Source: Syntrophobacterales bacterium
Lineage (GTDB): Bacteria; Desulfobacterota; Desulfobaccia; Desulfobaccales; 0-14-0-80-60-11
Direction: 5' to 3'
Assembly (NCBI GenBank): GCA_023512475.1
Contig: JAILZL010000012.1
Coordinates: 1 to 64,000 of the forward strand
Length of the DNA stretch: 64,000 nt
In this document: positions 25,244-27,151 of the stretch, one piece after another
Position numbering within the stretch: position 1 is the stretch's first letter
How the letters are laid out: each line of letters begins with the position of its first letter
Made by a program: the position numbers and the translations under genes
Notes under the pieces: model-generated
Database searches by the model: none
The model's input: only the letters and a program-made list of their open reading frames with translations
What the model was told of the DNA's origin: nothing

Positions 25244-25663
25244 AGGGGCGGGAGGGGGCTGTGTCAGGACCCGGGGAGTCGGGTGCTCCTGGCCTCCCTG
25301 GACAGGAAGCCGTCCTTACGATGGCGCCGGATTTTCCCGGCCTCACCCCCGGCAGGGGCAGGTCCCACCGGTGCAGGTGCCGGTGGGGGGCCCGCCCATC
25401 TCAGCCCGGGGGACAGGGGCGGGGGAGACCGGGTCCGGCTGCGGGGAGAATTTTCCGGATTGACAATTCCGGTTGCGATTGTTAATGAATTAATCAGATA
25501 GAACCCGGTCTTACAGTCACCTGAGAACCGGATCTCTTTCCCCCGGGTGACACAATTCCCCTCTGCATGCCCTTTTGATCCTCTCCGGCGCCCGGGCTCC
25601 CACCTCTGTTTGATTCCCACCCTCACCGTTTATGTGCCCCGGTTTCCCGGGAAGGAGACGGCC
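25244..25663. other. 420-bp gap with a candidate subtilase promoter
   Basis: TTGACA at 25460-25465 is followed by an AT-rich stretch with GTTAAT (25481-25486) and the small palindrome TTAATGAATTAA (25482-25493); spacing is short (15 bp) for a standard promoter. A GC-rich part at 25260-25440 has repeated GGTGC/CCGGTG tracts and no gene. Confidence 0.35.
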
Positions 25664-27151
25664 ATGCAGAGAAAGTGGTTTCTGTGGGCGGGCGCCCTGG
25701 TCTTTCTGGCGGTTCTCTTGTGGGGAGCGGGCGTGGGTAAGGCCGAGGTGACCCAGGAAGGGGACGAATTTCCCGTCGGCGCCTATGTGCCGGGGGAAGT
25801 GCTGGTCAAATTCGCGGACACCCCGGTGCAGCGGGGCCGGGGGGTGCTGCGGGGCGCCGCGGCGGCAGAGTTCCTGGAAAGACTGCCGGCCCCGGCCCGT
25901 CTGGCCCTGGCAGAGATCCAGAGAAAGGTATTGCGGGTCAACGCCGATCTGGGCATCCTGCGGGTCAGGCTCCGGGGACGCCTCACCGTGGAGAAGGCGG
26001 TGCAGAAACTGCGGCAGAACCTGGCGGTGGAGTATGCCCAGCCCAACCATCTCTTCCGCACCCTGGCGGCCCCCAACGACCCTAACTTCAAAAGACAGTG
26101 AGCCCTGGACAACACCGGCCAGAAGATCATGGTCAATTTCTCCATGTATATTTACGGCACCCCGGATGCGGACATTGACTGGCTGGAGGCGTGGGAATCC
26201 TTCGGCTCCTCCACAACGGCCGAAACCGTGGTGGTGGTCCTGGACACCGGCGTCCAGTACACCCACCCGGATCTTACGAAACGCATGTGGAAAAACCCCG
26301 ACGAGGTGGCGGACGGGAAGGATAATGACGGCAACGGCATCGTTGATGACGTGTACGGCATGAATGCCATTCCGACGGTCCCCACCGGCAATCCGGCGGA
26401 CGACAACGGCCACGGCACGCATGTGGCGGGGATCGCCGCAGCCCAGACCCACAATTCGGTCGGGGTTGCCGGGGTGGCCTGGAACGCCAAAATCATGGCC
26501 CTCAAGTTTCTGGACCGCTATGGCAACGGCAGCGAGTTCGACGCGGTGGAGTGCATCACCTACGCCCTGACCATGAAGCAGCGGCACAGCATCCCCCGCA
26601 TGGTGATGAACGCCAGTTGGGGGGCATATGTCAATTTAAACCTGCCGCCTTTCTATATCCCGCCTACTCCTGAGGCGGTGGCCGCTTTGTATGAGGCCAT
26701 CCAAAGGGCCGGCAATAACGGGGTTCTCTTTGTGGCCGCCGCCGGCAATGACGGGGTCAATATTGACACGGAGCAGTATAAAATGATCCCGGCCGGTTTC
26801 GACCTGGACAACATCATCAGCGTGGGCGGCTCCTCCGAGGACGACGACCTCAGGACCATATTCTGGGCCAGCAATTATGGCCCCCAGAGTGTGGATCTCT
26901 TCGCTCCGGGCAATGAAATCTACAGCACCGTGCCCACCAACAAATACGCCTTCAAGAGCGGCACCTCCATGGCGGCACCCCACGTGAGCGGGGCCGCCGC
27001 CCTGGTGTGGGGCAAATTCCAGAACGATAATCATCTGGCGATCAAGGACCGGATCCTGAACACCGTGGATCCGGGCGGGATGCGGAATAAGATCACCACC
27101 GAGCGGTGTGTCACGGGCGGCAGGCTGAATCTGAACCGGGCCCTGCAATAG
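25664..27151 (+). pseudogene. secreted subtilisin-like (S8) protease interrupted by one in-frame TGA
   Basis: One continuous reading frame of 496 codons except for TGA at 26099-26101. The N-terminal part has a signal peptide (residues 1-26) and a propeptide with GEVLVKF, and reaches PNDPNFKRQ. After the stop come ALDNTGQ and a complete S8 catalytic domain: Asp in VVVLDTGVQYTHPDL, His in DDNGHGTHVAGIAAA, Ser in SGTSMAAPHVSGAAAL. Related proteases read QWaLxNTGQ here, so TGA replaces the conserved Trp codon TGG. An ATG at 26129 could restart the catalytic domain without signal or propeptide. A recent nonsense mutation, sequencing error or readthrough are all possible. AAGGAG precedes ATG 25664. 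Confidence 0.85.

Follow-up and report, generated by a model that had tools for sequence, protein, structure and literature searches.

A subtilase frame interrupted by a single in-frame TGA at a conserved tryptophan codon in a Syntrophobacterales draft genome

When a protease gene that looks otherwise sound carries one in-frame TGA, has the gene been broken recently, is the assembly wrong, or is the codon decoded? This question is raised by a frame on the forward strand of a 64,000-nucleotide stretch of DNA, hereafter called the window. The genome is probably a draft assembled from a metagenome, and its phylum is likely to resemble sulfate reducers. The features of the locus are collected in Table 1.

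Layout and identity of the interrupted frame

Translation of the frame revealed one internal stop only, at codon 146, downstream of which the frame is open until a TAG at 27149-27151. The duplex energy calculated over the 20 nt upstream of the first ATG, −12.9 kcal/mol, is among the strongest in the window. The residues of the catalytic triad were found at Asp194 (26243-26245), His250 (26411-26413) and Ser435 (26966-26968), and the oxyanion residue Asn362 is present as well (26747-26749). Profile match and triad are thus those of an S8 subtilase, with the single departure that the frame is interrupted at codon 146. A preliminary description, made from the DNA letters, had reported a frame undamaged before and after the TGA, three intact catalytic residues and an intact signal peptide. 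The first two statements were confirmed, down to the exact coordinates of the stop, and the third agrees with the charged start and hydrophobic run that we recognised by eye.

Table 1. Coordinates of features at the interrupted subtilase locus (window numbering)
Feature	Positions	Strand	Evidence or remark
uvrB-dnaJ segment	25244-27541	+	~2.3 kb here; in both sister species ~0.4 kb and lacking the subtilase
Shine-Dalgarno-like sequence GGGAAGGAG, upstream of ATG 25664	25649-25657	+	Duplex energy
Interrupted S8 subtilase frame	25664-27151	+	495 codons and a final TAG; interrupted by one TGA
Probable signal peptide region (charged start, hydrophobic run)	25664-25741	+	Inference; boundary set by eye
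Fervidolysin_NPro-like prodomain, residues 39-128	25778-26047	+	Pfam, E 5.9e-11
In-frame TGA, codon for Trp in 47/52 homologues	26099-26101	+	Translation, alignment
First in-frame ATG 3′ of the TGA, without Shine-Dalgarno	26129-26131	+	Duplex energy −4.3 kcal/mol
Peptidase_S8 domain match, Asp/His/Ser intact	26222-27073	+	PF00082, E 4.2e-52

The closest solved relative by sequence is the S8 subtilase deseasin MCP-01 (PDB 3vv3; E 2.5e-63, aligned over residues 135-494). It shares with the window gene the motifs of the triad and the start of the mature enzyme, NDPxFxxxWgLxNxGQ; the window gene differs in carrying a stop in place of the Trp codon and in lacking any domain beyond the catalytic one. 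The prodomain match, to the fervidolysin type (PF22148), lies above the curated cut-off, but here the TGA severs the prodomain from the catalytic domain. The stop falls where the mature enzyme begins, within the motif that reads NDPxFxxxWgLxNTGQ in relatives. The sequence is that of a secreted subtilase of the type represented by deseasin MCP-01 and fervidolysin, broken by one nonsense codon.

The tryptophan position and the state of the gene

An alignment of the query with 53 homologues was used to analyse the column of the TGA, at which 52 of them have a residue. This residue is Trp in 47, and D, D, G, T and Y in the remaining five. The expectation of a Trp at this place, stated in the preliminary description, is therefore borne out, and homologues lacking Trp, which it had named as one observation that would speak against it, are a small minority. 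No other internal stop was present among the subtilase matches in 59 relatives. A survey of 395 genomes of the phylum brought a single further homologue with an internal stop; this is a distant one (L219, genome G211) with one TAG in the prodomain, at a position unlike that of the TGA. In neither set does any other homologue have a TGA at the same place. That the stop falls exactly on a conserved Trp is unsurprising, since Trp codons are a frequent one-base route to a stop: in the rest of the frame, they account for 20 of the 122 such routes, and for 20 of 37 when only transitions are counted. A nonsense codon on a conserved Trp is thus to be expected, and should be read with that caution.

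The rest of the gene was then compared with its homologues. Of the 42 columns with conservation in 85% or more of them, the query deviates at only 2, which is mid-range among 51 sequences and indicates a subtilase without accumulated decay. The codon scores on each side of the TGA are typical of coding sequence, and the third-position GC content is 0.81 on both flanks. The earlier observation that no other damage is seen therefore holds. With constraint and codon bias intact, the stop must be young, or an error, or tolerated. Read from the assembly, the gene is a nonsense-interrupted one (interrupted coding sequence, ICDS), with a lone in-frame stop that homologues lack and coding sequence on either side of it.

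Decoding of UGA in this genome

A genetic code in which UGA means Trp was considered and rejected: TGA is the main stop codon, ending 280 of 405 gene calls (69%) in the 457 kb sampled part of the genome, release factor RF2 is encoded, and the tRNA-Trp is ordinary. A covariance search gave 43 tRNA matches, and ARAGORN, run on loci holding them, read one tRNA-Trp(CCA). Of the tRNA genes read in this way, tRNA-Sec(UCA) alone has an anticodon that reads a stop, and none encodes a suppressor tRNA. UGA readthrough has been linked to a shortened anticodon stem of tRNA-Trp, to A9C and to G24A (PMC13092985). In the tRNA-Trp(CCA) of this genome, inspection by eye showed five pairs in the anticodon stem (CCGGT/ACCGG), as well as A9 and G24, so that none of these three features is present.

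Leaky or programmed readthrough had been one of the alternatives in the preliminary description; tRNA-Trp or another near-cognate tRNA would decode the UGA at low frequency and yield a little full-length protease for secretion. It has been proposed that bacterial genes with in-frame stops are widely read through (PMC7918605), a gene still expressed in this leaky way would likewise show constraint on both sides of the stop, and a stop on a Trp codon is one that tRNA-Trp could restore. Positive support failed to emerge, however, from any of the data at hand. The features of the tRNA-Trp, the presence of RF2 and the dominant use of TGA as a stop all speak against it, no outstanding structure was seen 3′ of the TGA, and the conservation of the stop in relatives that is expected of programmed readthrough is lacking, as the TGA is kept neither in the 59 relatives nor in the 395 phylum genomes. 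We consider readthrough improbable. A stronger version, in which the TGA would act as a low-efficiency expression valve, giving little full-length protease by near-cognate decoding and being kept by selection in the species, appears more improbable still.

The preliminary description had also suggested reinitiation at the first ATG downstream. That ATG opens a 340-aa frame containing the whole S8 domain, so that the locus might encode an upstream prodomain and a separately restarted catalytic polypeptide. Yet it has no Shine-Dalgarno sequence, with a duplex energy of −4.3 kcal/mol against −12.9 kcal/mol at ATG 25664, its product would be cytoplasmic, deprived of both signal peptide and prodomain, and no homologue in the 59 relatives or the 395 phylum genomes is split at this point. 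Such split expression is disfavoured, and we hold it to be very unlikely.

Insertion of selenocysteine at the UGA, an option missing from the preliminary description, would make the subtilase a selenoprotein. It deserved consideration in a genome that encodes tRNA-Sec and SelB, as genomes with bacterial selenoprotein genes do, and that has probable selenoproteins of its own, a peroxiredoxin and a thioredoxin-like protein. A hairpin with a loop starting in G even lies 20 nt downstream of the subtilase UGA and, though weak, fits the loose description of a SECIS. Of 3000 TGA sites taken at random, however, 41% equalled or beat its energy of −5.1 kcal/mol; this measure is a weak one, as a likely true selenoprotein gene of a sister species, MvhD-like, scores no better than the subtilase. 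Folds of the TGA region were no more stable than those of shuffled sequences, and no SECIS family of Rfam was found at the site. Compared with bacterial selenoprotein genes, the window gene has by this measure no SECIS signal above background, nor, which weighs most, any Cys homologue at the site, where homologues have Trp and none of the 52 has Cys; the position is moreover neither redox nor catalytic. Selenocysteine is accordingly the least credible reading, with hardly any weight left to it. Even in a genome that decodes UGA as selenocysteine, a claim of recoding for an in-frame UGA should first be backed by both a Cys homologue and a SECIS.

Origin of the stop codon

Both genomes of the same genus (G001 and G002) lack the subtilase, at this place as well as genome-wide; their uvrB and dnaJ genes are adjacent, with about 0.4 kb between them. 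The gene is thus dispensable in the genus. A protein tree of the subtilase was resolved too poorly to date the gene, to trace its source, or to separate a gain here from two losses.

Isolated stops were also looked for elsewhere in these assemblies, by scanning orthologues obtained from codon-score gene calls (∼160 pairs between the source genome, G000, and G001, and ∼140 for G002). Within the ∼160 pairs with G001, two more genes of the source genome are interrupted by a clean stop, both on contig C63. The first is a CbpA/DnaJ-like gene, whose codon 6 is TAA (MEYKD*YRILG; L109:17270-17272, minus strand); both sisters have Tyr there, and the frame is intact after it. The second, a glycosyltransferase family 9 gene (L110:11393-12328, minus strand), has a single TAG at which both sisters have Glu, again in an otherwise intact frame. 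In G002, one clean stop was found among ∼140 orthologues, early in a RarA-like gene and in a conserved stretch (RPRTLA*FVGQEHL; contig C8, L145:910-2166), with Glu in both G000 and G001; none was found in G001. Isolated nonsense codons therefore belong to the background of these draft assemblies, and the occurrence of three different stop codons among the clean stops counts against UGA recoding as their common cause.

Interrupted coding sequences are described as found in all bacterial genomes (PMC2277376), and the window gene resembles them in that one in-frame stop is its only damage. A significant proportion of those of M. smegmatis turned out to be sequencing errors (PMC1852416).

The locus, in short, combines an otherwise intact frame and intact constraint with the absence of the gene from the sister species. 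Very probably, the TGA is either a recent nonsense mutation or an error in the assembly consensus. Both had been offered as alternatives in the preliminary description, and both fit everything seen. Between the two, we lean towards a real and probably very recent nonsense mutation, which would have struck a gene of patchy distribution that the genus can do without; a wrong base in the consensus of the draft assembly is a tentative second choice. The interrupted subtilase is in this respect ordinary, being one more gene broken by a clean stop.

If the nonsense codon is real, translation would start at ATG 25664 and end at codon 146. The predicted product, an exported signal peptide with the prodomain and some 10 residues of the mature enzyme, would contain none of the catalytic residues, and the locus would presumably give no active protease.

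Three other in-frame TGA codons in the genus were recorded. In the source genome, the peroxiredoxin gene has one at the peroxidatic position (FTFV-UGA-PTEL; C63:28518-28520, plus strand, L110:8518-8520). The TGA is present in G000 and G001 and replaced by a Cys codon in G002, and a strong hairpin lies directly downstream of it; this sequence comparison makes a selenoprotein probable, one in which Sec and Cys would have been exchanged inside a single genus. The thioredoxin-like gene (C49, L100:14851-14853, minus strand) has its TGA in a UxxC motif (NPQ-UGA-IGCQQM) and probably encodes a selenoprotein too. The same is probable for the MvhD-like hydrogenase/heterodisulfide reductase subunit of G001 (C4:89835-89837, L117:9835-9837), whose TGA stands in the context VGG-UGA-HLGDCHY.
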